From an uncultured Clostridia bacterium (GTDB lineage: Bacteria > Bacillota > Clostridia > Oscillospirales > Acutalibacteraceae): DNA of 43,436 nt. The stretch lies in the NCBI GenBank assembly GCA_946041635.1, contig CAMGDG010000003.1, positions 1 through 43,436 on the forward strand. The letters run 5' to 3'. The translations under genes and the position numbers were made by a program. Positions 23,469-30,720 of the stretch are shown one piece after another; the stretch's first letter is position 1; the number at the start of each line of letters is the position of its first letter. The notes beneath the pieces are model-generated. The model made no database searches, was not told the origin of the DNA, and saw only the letters and a program-made list of their open reading frames with translations.

Positions 23469-25871
23469 ATGAATTTATCAGAAAAAGCAAAAGACGGTCT
23501 TTCAAAGGTCAGAACCTATTGGAAAACACCGCCTTTGGGAAAGTATGTTGCCTACAAAGAAATGATTGCCTACGGCGTAGGCGGTATGGGCGTGCAGTTT
23601 GTAATGGCGTTTGCCGGACAAATTGCGCTTTCGGCAACCAGCTTTTTGGTGGGCAATACAATCGGTATCAAGCCGATGCACTTGCAGTATATGGCAGTTG
23701 CGTCCACACTTATCGGTTTTATCATCACCATAGCAAGGTCATATATCATTGACAACTCCCGTTTGAAAATGGGTAAATTCCGACCTTGGCTTGCAGTAAT
23801 GGGTATCCCGACGGTGGCTTTATCGGTGCTGTTCGTCTGGCTGCCGTATGAAACAATGTCGTATGTGGAAAAAGCCGCGTCTGTATTTATCATTTACAAT
23901 TTGCTGCAATGCTGTTACCCGTTCTACCAAAACTCGTTTACGGATTTGGTCAATGTTATTTCACCCAATTCCCACGAACGGACGGATATTGTTTCGGTAT
24001 CGTCCATTATCTATTCTATGGCGCCCTCGTTAACAGGTTTGTTTATACCTATGCTTTCAAGCCTGACAGGCGGATTGAACAACATCAGAACCTACCGCAT
24101 CATTCACCCGATTGTTGCGATTGTCGGTCTTTTGCTTACATATGTTGCCGTGTTCGGCACAAAAGAGCGTATCATCGTTGCAAAAACTCATGTTTCTCAC
24201 TTTAAGTTTTCCGACGCATTCCGTGCCGTTGCAAAGAACAAATATTTCTGGATAACATCTCTTGCCGGCTGGCTCGGTTTCCTCGAAGGTGCAGTAGGCG
24301 TAATCATAGGATGGAATTTCATTTACGGATATCCCGAGCGTATGGCGCTTTACGGAATAGCAACAACGCTTATCGGAAATGCGGCTCTGTGGGCAATGAT
24401 TATCTGTCCGTTTGCAATTCGCACTATCGGCAAGCGTAATTTGCTGATTTGGTGCAACTTTGCCAACATTTTCTTAATCGGCCTTTTATATCCGCTGTAT
24501 AAAAATCTGTATGCGCTTATAATTTTGTACTACTTAAACGGCTTTGTAAACTCCTTTGCCGTTGTTTACAATCCCGGTATTAACGCCGATATGCGTGACT
24601 ATCAGCAGTATTATACAGGCGAGCGCATTGACGGTATGTTCGGCGCAGTAGGTATTATCGGCAGCTTTATAGGTATGTTCACAGGTATGGTTCTGCCTGC
24701 TATTTACCAAGGCCTCGGTCTTCAAGATAACTATGATGTTATGGAGGTTGCCTCCTTCCGTGAAGATATGTTTGAGGTTCTCATTATTGCGGCTGTTATC
24801 GGTGCGTTTATGAATATGGTACCGTATTTCTTCTATGACCTTACCGAGGTTAAACAGCGCGGCATAGTTAAAGTTCTCAAAATCCGTGCCATGTTTGAAG
24901 ACTACGGCAACGGCGTTCTTCGTGACGATAAGCTTGTTGAAGCCATTGACCTTATTGATGAGGCAAACCGCTTCTATGAAGAAAGAAAGTTTATGACCAC
25001 AAAGGACGACATCAAAAAAGCCAAGCACCTCCCTGCCGGAACTGCGGAGGAAAAAGCCTTCAAAAAGGCCGAAATTCAGCGTCTTAAAAAGGCTTATCAA
25101 GTGTTCACGGCAGAGAACAAGCAAAAAATCCACGACACAAAGGCTCACGCAAAATCTATGCCGAAAAACACTCCGGAGGAAAAAGCCGCCCGCAAAGCCG
25201 CAATTAAGCAGGCAAAAGCGGAGGTTCGCACATATAAGCGTGTAAACGAGGAAATATCCGTTTGTGACTTCGTTGTTGACGAGATGAACAAATATAACAC
25301 ACGCCGTATTCAGGTTCAGTATGACCGTTTCAAGGCTCTTTACGAAACAGGTATTGAAGCGGTTTACAACGCTGACAAGAGCTTGCTGAAAGAGGCAAAG
25401 GCTATGCCCAAATCCACCCACGAGGAGCGGATTATCCGTTCCGATGCGGCGGCATATGCAAGGCTTATGCTTAACTGCAAAAAGAATCTTTTAAAGTATT
25501 ATCCCGACAAAAATGTTCATGAGCCTGACGAAGCCGTGCTTGAAGCCGCAGAGAATATGCCTGAGGACACGCTTGCACAGAGAATTGCAAAGAAAAAGGC
25601 AATAAAGGCTTTTGTAAACGAGAAATCAAGATATGTTCGTTCAGTAAAGATTTTGCTTGACGCAAAGAGAATGCTGACCGAAAAGGAAAACTTCACTCAC
25701 CTTGACGAAATCAGGGCAAGCTATAACGAAGCAAAGAAACGGCATGAGGCTGAATACGCACTTGTAAAGGAAGAGGCTGAAAAGCTTGAAGCGCAGCGCA
25801 AGGCAGACCTTGAAAGAAGAAAGGCGGAAAGACTTGCAAAGAGCGGTAAAGGGGGTAAAAACAATGACTAA
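23469..25871 (+). CDS. GPH-family sugar/cation symporter with long helical C-terminal tail
   Basis: An 800-residue transporter. Residues about 25-455 form a 12-span MFS unit of the glycoside-pentoside-hexuronide (GPH) family, with the family loop IIDNSRLKMGKFRPW after span 2 and DYQQYYTGERIDGMFG in the second half. Residues 456-800 are a hydrophilic Lys/Glu/Ala-rich tail predicted helical, with four motifs centred on Pro522, Pro565, Pro647 and Pro698 (AKHLPAGTAEEK, AKSMPKNTPEEK, AKAMPKSTHEER, AENMPEDTLAQR). The known GPH tail is the IIA-like domain of LacS; this one is unlike it. ATG 23469 is chosen because its paralogue has the same start (MNLS-KxKDG); AAGGAG is 12 bases upstream. The 3' end overlaps the lipoprotein gene by 8 bases. 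Confidence 0.9.
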   Translation: MNLSEKAKDGLSKVRTYWKTPPLGKYVAYKEMIAYGVGGMGVQFVMAFAGQIALSATSFLVGNTIGIKPMHLQYMAVASTLIGFIITIARSYIIDNSRLKMGKFRPWLAVMGIPTVALSVLFVWLPYETMSYVEKAASVFIIYNLLQCCYPFYQNSFTDLVNVISPNSHERTDIVSVSSIIYSMAPSLTGLFIPMLSSLTGGLNNIRTYRIIHPIVAIVGLLLTYVAVFGTKERIIVAKTHVSHFKFSDAFRAVAKNKYFWITSLAGWLGFLEGAVGVIIGWNFIYGYPERMALYGIATTLIGNAALWAMIICPFAIRTIGKRNLLIWCNFANIFLIGLLYPLYKNLYALIILYYLNGFVNSFAVVYNPGINADMRDYQQYYTGERIDGMFGAVGIIGSFIGMFTGMVLPAIYQGLGLQDNYDVMEVASFREDMFEVLIIAAVIGAFMNMVPYFFYDLTEVKQRGIVKVLKIRAMFEDYGNGVLRDDKLVEAIDLIDEANRFYEERKFMTTKDDIKKAKHLPAGTAEEKAFKKAEIQRLKKAYQVFTAENKQKIHDTKAHAKSMPKNTPEEKAARKAAIKQAKAEVRTYKRVNEEISVCDFVVDEMNKYNTRRIQVQYDRFKALYETGIEAVYNADKSLLKEAKAMPKSTHEERIIRSDAAAYARLMLNCKKNLLKYYPDKNVHEPDEAVLEAAENMPEDTLAQRIAKKKAIKAFVNEKSRYVRSVKILLDAKRMLTEKENFTHLDEIRASYNEAKKRHEAEYALVKEEAEKLEAQRKADLERRKAERLAKSGKGGKNND

Positions 25872-26916
25872 AAAAGTAATTGCAGTTATCATCGGTTTAA
25901 CGCTCGTACTTTCCCTTGTCTTATCGGGCTGTTCGGCAGACGGGATTATGAAAATATTAGCCATTGATACCGATGCCTACGACCCGGCAACCGAAACCGT
26001 TGCGGATATGGCAGGAAAAACCGTTTCAAAATCCGATATAAAAAGCGGCGATTTCACATACACTTTATACTCTGACGGCACAGCCGCAATAACCAAGTAC
26101 AGCGGTGAAGACAATATTCTTTCAATTCCTGCGGAAATTGACGGAAACACGGTTATCGGTCTTGAAAACAAAGCTCTTTATGAATCAAAAATCACAGAGC
26201 TTATACTGCCCGACACTTTGGAAATCATCGGTAACTTTGCCGTTCTTCACTGTGAAAAGCTTGAAAAGGTAACTTTCGGCAAAAACATAAAGGTCATCGG
26301 CATCAGCGCCTTTGAAAGCGAGGGCGACAACACAAAAAGCCTCGGCAAAGGCTCACTCAAAACGATTGTCTGGAACGGAGCTCCTGAAAGAATCGGCGAA
26401 AAGGCGTTTTTGTTCAATGACAAGCTGTCGGAAATCGTTCTTCCCGCCGGAGTAAAGACAATTGAGGAATGGGCGTTTGCAAAGTGTTACGGTGCAGACA
26501 AGATTATTCTCGGTGACGGACTTGAATTTATCGGTGACCACGCATTTTTAAAATGCCGTGCAGCTAAAGAAATTTCAATACCCGGAAGCTGTAAAACTAT
26601 TGATGTAAGCGCATTCTATCAGTGCTCCTCTGCCGAAAAAATAACTCTCGGCAACGGAATTGAAACGCTTAAAAAAGGCGCTTTTGAGGAGTGCGGTTCT
26701 CTTACGGAAATCACAGTACCCGACAGCGTTACCGTTATGGAGGCATATATTTTCTACAACTGTTCTTCTTTAAAGACCTGCAAACTCGGGGCTTCTGTTA
26801 CCGATTTGGGCAAAGATATTTTTACAGGTGACAAAAGCGTAACCGTTATTGCCCCCGCAGGAAGTGCGGCTGAAAAATACGCCAAGGAAAACAAAATAAG
26901 TTTTTCCGAAACCTAA
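25864..26916 (+). CDS. BspA-like leucine-rich-repeat lipoprotein
   Basis: A 350-residue surface lipoprotein. The signal peptide ends in the lipobox LVLSGC, so Cys21-22 should be lipidated. After a ~45-residue spacer and a small beta unit (DFTYTLYSDGTAAITKYSG), repeats of the LRR_5/BspA type run to the C terminus, with recurring I-x-x-x-A-F and L-x-x-I-x-I-P patterns (ITELILPDTLEIIGNFAV, SLTEITVPDSVTVME). ATG 25864 has AAGGGGG 7 bases upstream and overlaps the transporter stop. BspA-like repeats bind host proteins or glycans in other bacteria; here the overlap with a sugar transporter hints at a substrate-capturing partner, which is inference. Confidence 0.88.
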   Translation: MTKKVIAVIIGLTLVLSLVLSGCSADGIMKILAIDTDAYDPATETVADMAGKTVSKSDIKSGDFTYTLYSDGTAAITKYSGEDNILSIPAEIDGNTVIGLENKALYESKITELILPDTLEIIGNFAVLHCEKLEKVTFGKNIKVIGISAFESEGDNTKSLGKGSLKTIVWNGAPERIGEKAFLFNDKLSEIVLPAGVKTIEEWAFAKCYGADKIILGDGLEFIGDHAFLKCRAAKEISIPGSCKTIDVSAFYQCSSAEKITLGNGIETLKKGAFEECGSLTEITVPDSVTVMEAYIFYNCSSLKTCKLGASVTDLGKDIFTGDKSVTVIAPAGSAAEKYAKENKISFSET

Positions 26917-26936
26917 AAACATTGATTTATAATTGC

Positions 26937-26974
26937 CCGCCGGACATCAGTTGCAATGTTCGGCGGCTTTTTTT
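26937..26974 (+). terminator. Terminator after the lipoprotein gene
   Basis: CCGCCGGACAT (26937-26947) pairs with ATGTTCGGCGG (26956-26966) with one G-T pair, followed by C and seven T. Confidence 0.9.
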
Positions 26975-27070
26975 GTGTTTCTGTTACTTCATTTTTAAAA
27001 AAATCAATTATCCTTTTTGTAAATTTTTTAATCTGTTTTTTGTAAGATATAACGAAATTTCGTATTTTCC

Positions 27071-27092
27071 GTTCATTTTTTGTTAAAAAACT
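27071..27092 (+). repeat. Shared upstream motif, copy 2
   Basis: Identical over 22 bases to 23383-23404. It ends 10 bases before the -35 box of the second transporter gene, the usual place of an activator site. Confidence 0.7.
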
Positions 27093-27101
27093 GTTTTTCA
27101 A

Positions 27102-27130
27102 TTGAAGTAATTTATTTTATGTGGTAAAAT
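27102..27130 (+). promoter_or_regulatory. Promoter of the second transporter gene
   Basis: TTGAAG (27102-27107), 17-base spacer, TAAAAT (27125-27130) with TGG before the -10 as an extended -10. Confidence 0.7.
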
Positions 27131-27162
27131 ATCACTATCACTGCATAAGGAGCGCAAAAGAA

Positions 27163-29694
27163 ATGAATTTATCTCAAAAAGTAAAAGACGGCGTTGACAA
27201 AGTACGCACGTACTGGAAAACGCCAATGGCAGGCCGCTATATGACCTTCCGTGAAATTGCCGCATATTCAGGCGGCGGTATCGGTGCTTATATGATTATT
27301 ACACTGGGTACTGCGTGTCTTCTTGCCGCAAACAACACCCTGCTTTCAAGTACGCTGGGCGTTGACCCCACGGATATGTACATAATGTATGTTATTGCGG
27401 TTCTTGCAAACATTCCTCTTACGGGAATCCGTGCAAACATAATCGACAATACCAGAAACAAAGCCGGTAAATACCGTCCGTACATTGTTTCTATGGCTTT
27501 ACCCACTGCCATCATATGTATTTTAATGGTATGGTTCCCGTACAATAAGCTTGAAGCAATTGTGGGAACAGGCACTATTTTCGGCGAAACAAGAGCATAT
27601 ATTGCAAAGTGCGCCATTATAATGGTATTAAACCTTTTCCTGCACTTCTTCTATTATTTCTTCTATGACGCATATGAAAACTTAATTCATGTGCTTTCTC
27701 CCAACACACAGGAAAGAGCCGATGTTTCCGCTGTTAAAAGCGTTGTATATTCTCTGGCTCCCACACTTGTAAACTTATTTACACCCATTATCGCACAGAA
27801 TATTTTCCACACAAACACCACGGATATCCGTGTTTACAGACTTCTTTATCCCATTCTCGGTGTTTTCGGAATTTTGCTTTGCATTATTGTTTACAAATAT
27901 ACGGAAGAAAAAATTGTTCAGGCGAGAACACACGTTGTACAGATTAAATTTACCGACGCTTTGCGTGCTGTTGCCAAGAACAAATATTTCTGGATAATTT
28001 CACTTGCAGGTTGGATAGGTTTCCTTGAAGCCTCCTATGCCAACATTCTTTTCTGGATGTATAACTACGGCGGAGCCTGCTCCGGTAATGTTTACGGACT
28101 TCTTATCACCCTTTACGGTAACTCCTCTTTATGGGGTATGCTTTTAGCTCCCTTCTGCATTAAACGCTGGGGTAAAAAGTCAGTATTGGTAATTACAAAT
28201 CTGTTCAACATTGCCTTCATTCTTTTGATGCTTCCCTTTACAAATCAGATTGATAATCTTACTATTTGGCTTGTCATGGGATGCCTTTATCTCAACGGAT
28301 TCATGGGTGCTTTTGCCCATATCCTTAACCCTGCAATTCAGGCTGATATTCGTGACTATCAGCAGTACAAAACAGGTGAACGAATTGACGGTATGTTCTC
28401 CGCAGTTGCCACGATAGGTACTGTTATCGCTCTTGCAACATCTTCGGTTCTTCCCATTATTTATGAAAAGAGCGGTCTTACAAAGGCAAATGCTTTTGCA
28501 GTTACAGGCAGACCTGAAATTCTCAACAGAATGTTGGGCGACGGCAGAACAGTAGGAGAAATTCTCCAGGAGCAGATTGCTACCGGTCAGGATCCACGCA
28601 ATACAGCTCTTTCTGCACTCTATGACCCTGAAATACTCATAAACCTGCTTCATATTCTTATTATCATTTCCGCGATAGGCGCTTTGATGAATGTTATTCC
28701 CTATTTCTGGTATGATTTTAACGAAAGAAAGCAGAAATCAGTTGTTCGAGTTCTTAAAGTGCGTGCACTTTTTGAAGACTACGGAAACGGTGTTCTTAAC
28801 GACAGCGAGCTTGTTGAAGCAATTGACATTATCCGTGATGCAAAGGCTATGGCTGTTGCAGAACCTAAAACGATTGATAAAAAATCCTACAAGTCTATAA
28901 GCGACAAGGCGCTTCGCAAGGCGGCAAAGAAGCAATACCGCGAAGACATAAAGTTTAACGAGGAAATTGAAATAGCAAAATTTGTATGTGATGAGCTTAA
29001 CAAGTTCTCCACAGATGTTGTTAAACATCAGGTAACAGAATATTCCGCAGTTTACAACGCAGGGCTCGACGGACTTTTGAAAATGGATATTGCTGAAATC
29101 AAGGCTGAGCTTGCCGCCGCAAAATCCATGCCTAAAAATACTGCCGACGAAAAAGAGCTTCGCAAGTTTGCAATTGAAATTGCGAGAAATAAAAAGAGCG
29201 CATACAAAGCCATCAAAAAGTATTTTGCCGACGAAAAAGATTTTGTACAGCCCGATTTTGCAGTTGTTGAACAGTATTTTAACGAAGAAGACGAATGTGA
29301 CGAGAAGCTGAAAGTTCTTTATACCGAGCTTAAAGATGCAAAGAAAGCAAAGGACGCAAGCAAAGTGGCTTCTCTTAAAGCAGAAATCAAAGAATACAAC
29401 ATTAAACGCAAGGCGGCTCGTGACAATTCAAAAGTCGAGATGGATAAGCACGCATACTTTAACCGTGCCGCAAAGCCCTATCTTGACGCTGAAAGACTTA
29501 TCAAGCAACAGGAAAATTACAGCCGTTTTGACGAGATTGCAAATATGTATGACGAAGCAAAACTTCGTCATGAAAAGAAGCTTGCAGACGACGCCGAAGA
29601 GGCAGAGCGTTTGAGAGCAGAAGAAAAAGCATTGGCGGCTCAAATCAAGGCGGAAAAAGCCCAAAAAAAGCTTGACAAAAAGAATAAAAAATAA
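27163..29694 (+). CDS. GPH-family sugar/cation symporter with long helical C-terminal tail (paralogue)
   Basis: An 843-residue paralogue of the transporter at 23469. The membrane unit (about 25-516) has the GPH loop IIDNTRNKAGKYRP and DYQQYKTGERIDGMFS, and an extra hydrophilic insert of about 45 residues (RPEILNRMLGDGRTVGEILQ onward) before the last span. The tail (517-843) starts with the same R-V-L-K-V-R-A-L-F-E-D-Y-G core as its sister, carries one clear AKSMPKNTADEKELRKFA motif, and ends in a Lys/Ala/Glu coiled-coil-like stretch. The tail core and end are conserved while the middle differs, so the tail is probably functional. AAGGAG (27147-27152) precedes the ATG by 10 bases. Confidence 0.9.
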   Translation: MNLSQKVKDGVDKVRTYWKTPMAGRYMTFREIAAYSGGGIGAYMIITLGTACLLAANNTLLSSTLGVDPTDMYIMYVIAVLANIPLTGIRANIIDNTRNKAGKYRPYIVSMALPTAIICILMVWFPYNKLEAIVGTGTIFGETRAYIAKCAIIMVLNLFLHFFYYFFYDAYENLIHVLSPNTQERADVSAVKSVVYSLAPTLVNLFTPIIAQNIFHTNTTDIRVYRLLYPILGVFGILLCIIVYKYTEEKIVQARTHVVQIKFTDALRAVAKNKYFWIISLAGWIGFLEASYANILFWMYNYGGACSGNVYGLLITLYGNSSLWGMLLAPFCIKRWGKKSVLVITNLFNIAFILLMLPFTNQIDNLTIWLVMGCLYLNGFMGAFAHILNPAIQADIRDYQQYKTGERIDGMFSAVATIGTVIALATSSVLPIIYEKSGLTKANAFAVTGRPEILNRMLGDGRTVGEILQEQIATGQDPRNTALSALYDPEILINLLHILIIISAIGALMNVIPYFWYDFNERKQKSVVRVLKVRALFEDYGNGVLNDSELVEAIDIIRDAKAMAVAEPKTIDKKSYKSISDKALRKAAKKQYREDIKFNEEIEIAKFVCDELNKFSTDVVKHQVTEYSAVYNAGLDGLLKMDIAEIKAELAAAKSMPKNTADEKELRKFAIEIARNKKSAYKAIKKYFADEKDFVQPDFAVVEQYFNEEDECDEKLKVLYTELKDAKKAKDASKVASLKAEIKEYNIKRKAARDNSKVEMDKHAYFNRAAKPYLDAERLIKQQENYSRFDEIANMYDEAKLRHEKKLADDAEEAERLRAEEKALAAQIKAEKAQKKLDKKNKK

Positions 29695-29754: not shown

Positions 29755-30720
29755 TTATACTGCTGTTGATGTGAATCGAAGGTATTTATCATTTTTCTCC
29801 GTGCCCTTCCAGAAATGGATTTGGCGTGGATTTGCGAATATATCGTCAAGGCGTTTGATAAACGGCACCGCCTCGCCGAAATCAAGAGCACGGTGGTCAA
29901 AGGCGATACAGATTGGAAGCACCTGACGGATTTCTATGCTTTTTTCACCGTTTTTATCTGTTACAACCACAGGTTTATCCTGTACCGCTCCAACGCCGAA
30001 AGCGCAAACCTGAGGAGGGATAATTTCAAGAAGTCCCACATTACCCCTTTGCCCTCTGTAAAGCGAGCCGATATTTGAAACGGTAACCGTGCCCTGCTCT
30101 ATATCACTTTTTGTCAGGCGTTCTGTTTTGGGTATGCTTTCATATTCTTTTTTCGCTTTACCTTTCATTGTTTTAACTTTATATTTACCTGTTTTTGAGC
30201 CGATGAGACGAAATACCGTTTGCAGTATTTTCCCATTTTTAAGACCGGTAAGCGTATTATCCAAAGACACCTCAAACATTGCTTCATTAAGATTTGTTTT
30301 TAGGAGTCGCTTTGAAATGTCGCTGATATAATCTGTCATTTCATCAAGGTTTTTGTTTTCAAAATTATGAAGATTTACTGTCATCATTTCGCCTGTGGGC
30401 ATAAGCATGGGCATTGAAATATTTATATCCTCAAAGGTTTTTATTGTGCCTCTCACGAGCCTGCGGTTATATTCAATATGAGAGTTCATTATGGGAGCCG
30501 CTTTAAGCCCCTCGGCAATTACTTTAAGCATAAGGGTGTTTACTGTGATTTTATCTGCGCCCTTGCGGTTAAAATTCAGTTTTTTATATTCTTTCATAAA
30601 GTCTGTAACATCCGGCTCATAATTATATGTTACATGGGGAATTGTTTCCCAGCTTTCCGTTGTCATATTGGCAACGATTTTTCTTTGGATTCCGAACTTT
30701 ATTGTATTTACTGTTTTCAT
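29755..30720 (-). CDS. Stand-alone 2-oxoacid dehydrogenase (E2)-type acyltransferase
   Basis: A 321-residue protein matching only the catalytic domain of dihydrolipoamide acyltransferases and chloramphenicol acetyltransferase. There is no lipoyl domain and no E3-binding domain. The active-site region reads CIAFDHRALDFGEAVPF, so the catalytic His is present but the usual H-R-x-x-D-G is altered (Asp-Phe-Gly). GTVTVSNIGSL matches the E2 core strand normally reading GTFTISNLG. Thus it may use a CoA acyl donor on a small molecule, protein or sugar rather than act in a dehydrogenase complex. No E1 or E3 gene is adjacent. AAGGAG lies 7 bases before the ATG. Confidence 0.85.
   Translation of the reverse strand: MKTVNTIKFGIQRKIVANMTTESWETIPHVTYNYEPDVTDFMKEYKKLNFNRKGADKITVNTLMLKVIAEGLKAAPIMNSHIEYNRRLVRGTIKTFEDINISMPMLMPTGEMMTVNLHNFENKNLDEMTDYISDISKRLLKTNLNEAMFEVSLDNTLTGLKNGKILQTVFRLIGSKTGKYKVKTMKGKAKKEYESIPKTERLTKSDIEQGTVTVSNIGSLYRGQRGNVGLLEIIPPQVCAFGVGAVQDKPVVVTDKNGEKSIEIRQVLPICIAFDHRALDFGEAVPFIKRLDDIFANPRQIHFWKGTEKNDKYLRFTSTAV

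Follow-up and report, generated by a model that had tools for sequence, protein, structure and literature searches.

Two tailed symporters at one locus

The window analysed here, meaning the whole stretch of 43,436 nucleotides from an uncultured Clostridia bacterium (contig CAMGDG010000003.1), carries two paralogous forward-strand genes, called P1 and P2. P1 occupies positions 23469-25871, with its ATG at 23469 and its stop codon at 25869-25871, and codes for 800 amino acids. P2 occupies positions 27163-29694, from an ATG at 27163 to a stop codon that ends at 29694, and codes for 843 amino acids. Their parts, and the gene that lies between them, are as follows.

23469..24833, + strand: P1 membrane part, residues 1-455, GPH/MelB-type symporter (PF13347; MelB structural match)
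24834..25868, + strand: P1 tail as searched, residues 456-800, predicted all-helical (AlphaFold2 pLDDT 89.4, pTM 0.71)
24846..24920, + strand: P1 juxtamembrane segment, residues 460-484, linking TM12 to the tail (invariant residues; predicted helix 460-481)
25864..26916, + strand: BspA-type LRR_5 lipoprotein (PF13306, E 8.6e-63; lipobox LSGC found by eye)
27163..28710, + strand: P2 membrane part, residues 1-516 (PF13347 over residues 42-431, E 4.7e-29)
28711..29691, + strand: P2 tail, residues 517-843 (alignment A2)

The membrane parts of both proteins match PF13347 (MFS_2) above its gathering cut-off of 27 bits, with 119.1 bits for P1 (residues 35-459, E 2.4e-34) and 101.6 bits for P2. The membrane part of P2 also matches MFS_1, and all Pfam matches in the two proteins are confined to the membrane part. 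The NCBIfam model TIGR00792 aligns with P1 over model positions 2-435 of 437 and with P2 over positions 4-376, at scores (118.5 and 107 bits) below its curated cut-off of 231.35. A full-length AlphaFold2 model of P1, which is of moderate confidence (pLDDT 74.0, pTM 0.62), has the MelB fold according to Foldseek. The best PDB matches are 7l16, 9oli, 9old, and 8fq9, with TM-scores by target of 0.79-0.82 and identities of 16-17%; this fold check covers P1 alone. P1 and P2 are thus GPH-family symporters of the MelB type, and they presumably transport sugars by cation coupling.

The C-terminal tail

Initial inspection of the sequence had proposed that both symporters end in large extra C-terminal tails, and this is borne out by the open reading frames and by the limits of the PF13347 and TIGR00792 matches. 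Each tail is about 330 residues long. Because the TIGR00792 alignment reaches P1 residue 471, the truly extra part begins near residues 471-475 rather than at 456. The two tails were also thought to be alike in their first 40 and last 60 residues. The likeness is real, but it is not limited to these ends, since the tails align with 32% identity (E 6e-39) along P1 tail positions 1-305. Residues ~711-746 of P2 form a segment that is missing in P1-type tails (alignment A2).

No known family accounts for the tail. We assembled an alignment (A1) of 28 tails, hand-picked from 45 non-redundant tails. Scanning these 28 against Pfam at E values up to 1 gave nothing significant (best E 0.0079), and the same was true of PHROGs for the tail alone (best E 0.011). 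The tail region of P1 and P2 is unmatched in NCBIfam, and PDB sequences yielded no significant match, the one weak match being 7vg4 (E 0.31 with a single tail, 0.17 with a profile). The view that the tail is not a described domain therefore holds for the libraries searched, none of which gave a whole-tail match.

Structure prediction of the P1 tail alone, which the sequence-only reading had suggested, returned a confident model from 11 sequences (pLDDT 89.4, pTM 0.71) with helices throughout. Helix boundaries are near-identical in the tail-alone and full-length AlphaFold2 runs, and the model includes long continuous helices, four of which span 37-43 residues. The full-length model gives nothing reliable on contacts between this arm and the membrane. 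At the base of the tail, the juxtamembrane segment carries four residues (L15, R18, F21, and D23 in tail numbering) that are invariant across A1. The tail of P1 is probably a large, well-folded helical extension inside the cell.

A recurring helix joint

Four motifs of the form A-K-x-M-P-x-x-T-x-E-E-K had been noted in the P1 tail. Four are present, beginning at residues 518, 561, 643, and 694 with the spacing of 43, 82, and 51 residues that had been given, but the strict pattern (with K or R at the last position) fits only those at 561 and 643 exactly. The motif at 518 has L in place of M, and that at 694 reads AENMPEDTLAQR. As anticipated, P2 retains at least one motif, a single near-match at residue 653 (AKSMPKNTADEK) that is one letter off the pattern.

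25002..25091, + strand: P1 repeat unit 1, residues 512-541 (unit HMM 17.8 bits; motif AKHLPAGTAEEK at 25020-25055)
25119..25244, + strand: P1 repeat unit 2, residues 551-592 (unit HMM 37.5 bits; motif AKSMPKNTPEEK at 25149-25184)
25365..25499, + strand: P1 repeat unit 3, the core unit, residues 633-677 (unit HMM 41.3 bits; motif AKAMPKSTHEER at 25395-25430)
25548..25583, + strand: degenerate fourth P1 motif AENMPEDTLAQR, residues 694-705 (found in all four P1-type rows of A1)
29119..29154, + strand: P2 single joint motif AKSMPKNTADEK (pattern search)

A looser form of the pattern matches the P1 tail three times against 0.0009 expected, a count reached in none of 10000 shuffles. It matches the P2 tail once, as happened in 1 of 10000 shuffles. 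The unit scores listed above come from an HMM built on 24 A1 tails with the P1-type rows left out. When this HMM was run on 1000 shuffled sequences, 952 gave some match, the best of which scored 6.4 bits. The fourth P1 copy scores 0.7 bits and is not significant as a repeat.

In the AlphaFold2 model, all four P1 motifs sit at joints between helices, with the Thr (tail residues 70, 113, 195, and 246) directly preceding the next helix. This model favors describing the repeat as a helix-loop-helix joint unit over calling it a binding motif. The loose motif form is present at the place of the core unit in 25 of 28 tails, and P1 has two extra copies of the unit. Motif number ranges from one to four among tails, and one tail (L021, G005:C139) carries an exact tandem copy of a unit of ~64 residues, which together suggest that the tail grew by copying units. 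The L021 duplication lies on a 3-kb contig and might reflect recent expansion or an assembly effect.

A look-alike joint in FTCD_C proteins

The same joint occurs in FTCD_C, a domain of the methenyl-THF cyclohydrolase family, and the arm might be considered a derived FTCD_C domain. FTCD_C is the most frequent weak Pfam match (4 of 28 tails, best E 0.02), and 7vg4 is the sole match among PDB sequences. Moreover, in a class sample of 391 genomes, 25 besides the window's own gave weak tail matches (E 2e-4 to 0.01, at most 20.4 bits). Among the nine of these loci that were fetched, eight encode FTCD_C proteins and one encodes a protein that looks coil-like by eye. In the FTCD_C enzymes at L095-L102, the joint has the helix-PKxTxEEK-helix form seen in the tail.

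However, hhalign aligns only 30 columns of the tail with FTCD_C (probability 86.7%), most of the residues invariant in FTCD_C, among them the PGGG motif, lie outside this stretch, and Foldseek places 7vg4 at E 1.7 with a TM-score of 0.13 by query. No full-domain FTCD_C profile match was found in the 28 tails. The two families thus have the joint in common over ~30 residues, whereas the remaining sequence does not align and Foldseek gave no significant match for the predicted tail fold. We therefore regard derivation of the arm from FTCD_C as very improbable. Two protein families probably use the same helix joint by convergence, and the joint hairpins could conceivably share descent.

Distribution

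A search with the P1 tail found it in all 36 same-genus genomes included, the window's own among them, and gave no match in 23 genomes drawn from the order's other families. With profile A1, 9 of 345 genomes of the order have matches, all within the family of the window. At the family level, the profile matches 52 of 250 genomes in 27 of 135 genera, most of these matches being judged by open-frame length alone. The class sample of 391 genomes gave no credible match outside the family, and at E 1e-4 the only match among 348 genomes of the phylum is in the window's own genome. All these figures describe samples of the groups rather than whole groups. The tail has so far been seen in one bacterial family within the samples searched.

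The tail marks a subset of the family, since 168 of the same 250 genomes have a PF13347 match (151 over the cut-off) compared with the 52 that have the tail. A first look by eye counted 13 to 56 GPH candidates in genomes with tails and up to 26 in genomes without them, which are overlapping ranges. On closer look, two tailless family genomes (G059 and G127) have no GPH protein over the cut-off. Relatives occur in six named records, whose labels are Bacillota, Oscillospiraceae, Ruminococcus, Ruminococcaceae, and Clostridia (twice).

Searching with the tail alone also addressed whether it occurs only behind GPH transporters. Among 102 tail-matching open reading frames of at least 330 amino acids, a set in which overlapping loci often contribute one gene several times, 101 also match the GPH membrane part. 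The exception (L079) lies behind a GPH gene that is read in a different frame. An orphan tail fragment of 215 amino acids (L105:2305-2949) has no GPH gene in the 2 kb upstream and lies near a dUTPase-like open reading frame. One P1-type locus (L103) has an in-frame stop, and L109 has frame breaks.

Origin and constraint

A rapid tree (LG+G4 model, with SH-aLRT as the sole support measure), which came with long-branch warnings, was built from 107 membrane domains, of which 61 belong to proteins with a full tail, 4 to proteins with a partial tail, and 42 to proteins with none. The genomes were picked mainly for having tails. Nine named open reading frames that were cut, broken, or duplicate copies were left out at the start, and rows were dropped if they were shorter than 330 amino acids, if the tail match did not start at the profile start, or if they shared an identical 90-residue stretch. 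All 61 full tails fall in one group with SH-aLRT support of 91, which also contains a truncated protein (L008) from the window's own genome. The full-tail trait requires 2 changes on the tree, the second being this one truncated member, against a mean of 34.7 when shuffled, and none of 500 shuffles was as low.

Most of the arm is absent from L008, and at least some members therefore do without it. Three relatives outside the group have short versions. Two of these (L107 and L108) have ~110 residues that match the tail profile at its two ends and nowhere between, and in L110 a single protein has ~75 residues matching only the first 47 profile positions. Two proteins that fall between the short-tail relatives and the full group (L012 and L171) have no tail. 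On this tree, the arm probably arose once in one family of gut Clostridia. One origin, growth from the middle, and losses would fit these data, as might other orders of events.

P1 and its four orthologues are 799-803 amino acids long, with tail identities of 67-73%. In the membrane part, dN is 0.02-0.08 and dN/dS is 0.024-0.058 in comparisons with P1. In the tail, dN is 0.22-0.29 and dS is saturated in every pair, so we claim no ratio for the whole tail. Some tail sub-segments have a usable dN/dS, of 0.076-0.233. P2 shows the same trend against three relatives (dN 0.03-0.15 in the membrane part and 0.16-0.36 in the tail). With tail dN several times higher than that of the membrane part, these sequence comparisons indicate that constraint is weaker on the tail than on the carrier. 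The tail probably retains its length and its fold while its sequence drifts.

These rates bear on whether the arm is a neutral extension that is merely tolerated. The faster divergence of the tail fits this idea, as do the truncation in L008 and the short versions in L107, L108, and one L110 protein. Against it stand an apparent single origin with retention in nearly all group members (among genomes chosen for tails), the confident predicted fold, invariant positions across 28 diverse tails, and a length that P1 orthologues hold within a few residues despite saturated synonymous divergence. The earlier expectation was that a neutral tail would be absent or highly variable in orthologues, whereas those of P1 keep its length at ~70% tail identity. 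We consider neutrality improbable.

Nucleotide identity between P1 and its G013 counterpart falls from ~85% to ~65% near positions 24,900-24,970 and stays low thereafter. Synonymous sites differ too, and so abrupt a change may point to recombination in the membrane half of P1.

Gene neighborhoods

The ATG of the LRR_5 lipoprotein gene overlaps the P1 stop codon by 8 bases. A homologue of this gene adjoins P1-type genes in all eight loci whose DNA was examined, the window included (ten loci were matched, three being second copies of the same contigs, and some flanks are short). No homologue lies beside the full or partial tails of 19 further loci, some of which also have short flanks. For a symporter, a partner on the cell surface would be out of the ordinary.

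A second tailed symporter lies beside P1 in five of the eight P1-type loci (the window, G015, G031, G003, and G013). Two others (L103 and L111) extend less than 2.1 kb downstream and therefore cannot show whether one follows. In G015, G031, and G003 the gene order is a TetR regulator, P1, the LRR lipoprotein, P2, and an AraC-type regulator, with the regulators assigned by Pfam in G015 and by the likeness of their starts in the other two. G024 (L060) has the same flanks around a P2-type gene and lacks P1 and the lipoprotein. This pairing of genes is relevant to the idea that the arm is mainly an oligomerisation device, in which helices of two symporters pair, either P1 with P2 or each with itself, with no signal input. 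Four long continuous helices of 37-43 residues would suit such a role. However, the recurring joints split the arm into hairpins, and several tailed symporters have no tailed neighbor in the DNA examined. We hold pure oligomerisation to be a tentative alternative.

The sequence-only reading also raised the possibility that the tail docks glycosidases encoded nearby, and that the GH2, GH95, GNAT, and E2-like proteins of the window might be its partners. The corresponding scaffold model would have the arm dock cytosolic catabolic enzymes for substrate channelling. Glycosidase genes are indeed found near several tailed symporters. Besides GH2 and GH95 in the window, these include GH31 (L058), GH127 (L064), and GH2 (L065), and within a few genes of others lie a GH20 (L046) and a BNR sialidase-like protein (L050). 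Neighbors for this Pfam scan were picked by eye. However, the enzymes vary by locus while the core arm is constant, and in a comparison of twelve loci the cluster found in the window reappears in G020 alone, beside a P2 orthologue without P1. One tailed symporter (L057) neighbors a class II aldolase and a class III aminotransferase, and no glycosidase is present among the open reading frames inspected at L055, L056, and L060. Docking of the nearby glycosidases is thus not supported. Since the arm sits behind symporters in differing sugar-gene surroundings, recruitment of one particular glycosidase is unlikely, and we doubt the enzyme scaffold model as a whole. The arm could instead dock a shared central enzyme.

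A gene at 29755-30720, convergent with P2, codes for a 2-oxoacid dehydrogenase acyltransferase domain in which no lipoyl domain was matched. This convergent layout is also seen in L059 and L040, and the acyltransferase homologue in L068 ends in a K/E-rich coil of ~180 residues.

Possible function of the arm

Our preferred reading, to which we assign a probability of roughly 0.55, is that P1 and P2 carry a helical arm, specific to their lineage, which serves protein contacts and regulates or clusters the symporters. The arm is predicted to attach to the end of TM12 through the strongly conserved juxtamembrane segment and to consist of helices linked by recurring helix-MPxxT-helix joints. As a protein-contact module, it might allow symporters to associate with each other (with the same protein or the tandem paralogue), with a shared cytosolic protein, or with both. 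The juxtamembrane helix could then relay such contacts to the transport cycle and so provide control of uptake at the protein level. This segment, with its invariant L15, R18, F21, and D23, is a point at which contacts could act on transport.

The earlier suggestions of a scaffold or of a substrate sensor are possible by inference. A further suggestion, that the tail senses phosphorylation, found no direct support, although the arm may still contact HPr. HPr is present in 38 of 39 genus genomes, which include the 36 searched with the P1 tail, but PTS_EIIA_1 was detected in none of the 39, whereas a control gave positives in 5 of 14. Consistent with the initial assessment that the tail differs from that of LacS, neither P1 nor P2 matches PTS_EIIA_1, and the tail therefore does not act as a IIA switch of the LacS type.

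A more speculative extension starts from a genus that has HPr and lacks a detectable Glc-type IIA. Here a GPH subfamily would have evolved an expandable helical sensor arm that replaces uptake control by IIA-Glc, the number of joint units would tune reach or partner choice, and P1 would be coupled to the surface LRR lipoprotein. We regard this full scenario as a long shot. Whatever its role, the arm offers a defined test case, in that it is a predicted folded domain, essentially GPH-only and seen in a single family of gut bacteria, which probably originated once and apparently grew by units.

Comparison with known systems

The closest known relatives are the MelB/GPH symporters (PF13347, TIGR00792). 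P1 and P2 resemble them in a membrane part that exceeds the Pfam gathering cut-off and in the MelB fold of the P1 model. They differ in falling under the TIGR00792 curated cut-off and in carrying ~330 extra residues. This arm adds a domain that is unmatched by any Pfam or NCBIfam model searched, and the tail is best viewed as a new C-terminal domain variant on a known carrier family. Carriers can have tails, and this much is ordinary. The unusual aspects are its size, the confidence of its predicted fold, its apparent growth by units, and its narrow distribution.

Two systems offer functional parallels. The C-terminal antiparallel coiled coil of ProP, an MFS osmosensor, is much shorter than the arm of P1 and P2 and is a simple coiled coil. 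By description, ProP is also an MFS carrier whose C-terminal domain is helical and cytosolic, as in P1 and P2. LacS is a GPH carrier with a fused IIA-Glc-like domain that is phosphorylated by HPr, and P1 and P2 are likewise GPH carriers with a large C-terminal domain. However, PTS_EIIA_1 is absent from P1 and P2 and is also not among the 25 families listed, out of 39, for the 28 tails. Passages of one published account describe regulation of LacS through its C-terminal domain and tuning of ProP activity by its helical cytosolic C-terminal domain (PMC10710835). By analogy, these two domains may serve as precedents for carrier control by a C-terminal domain, and they appear unrelated to the arm described here.
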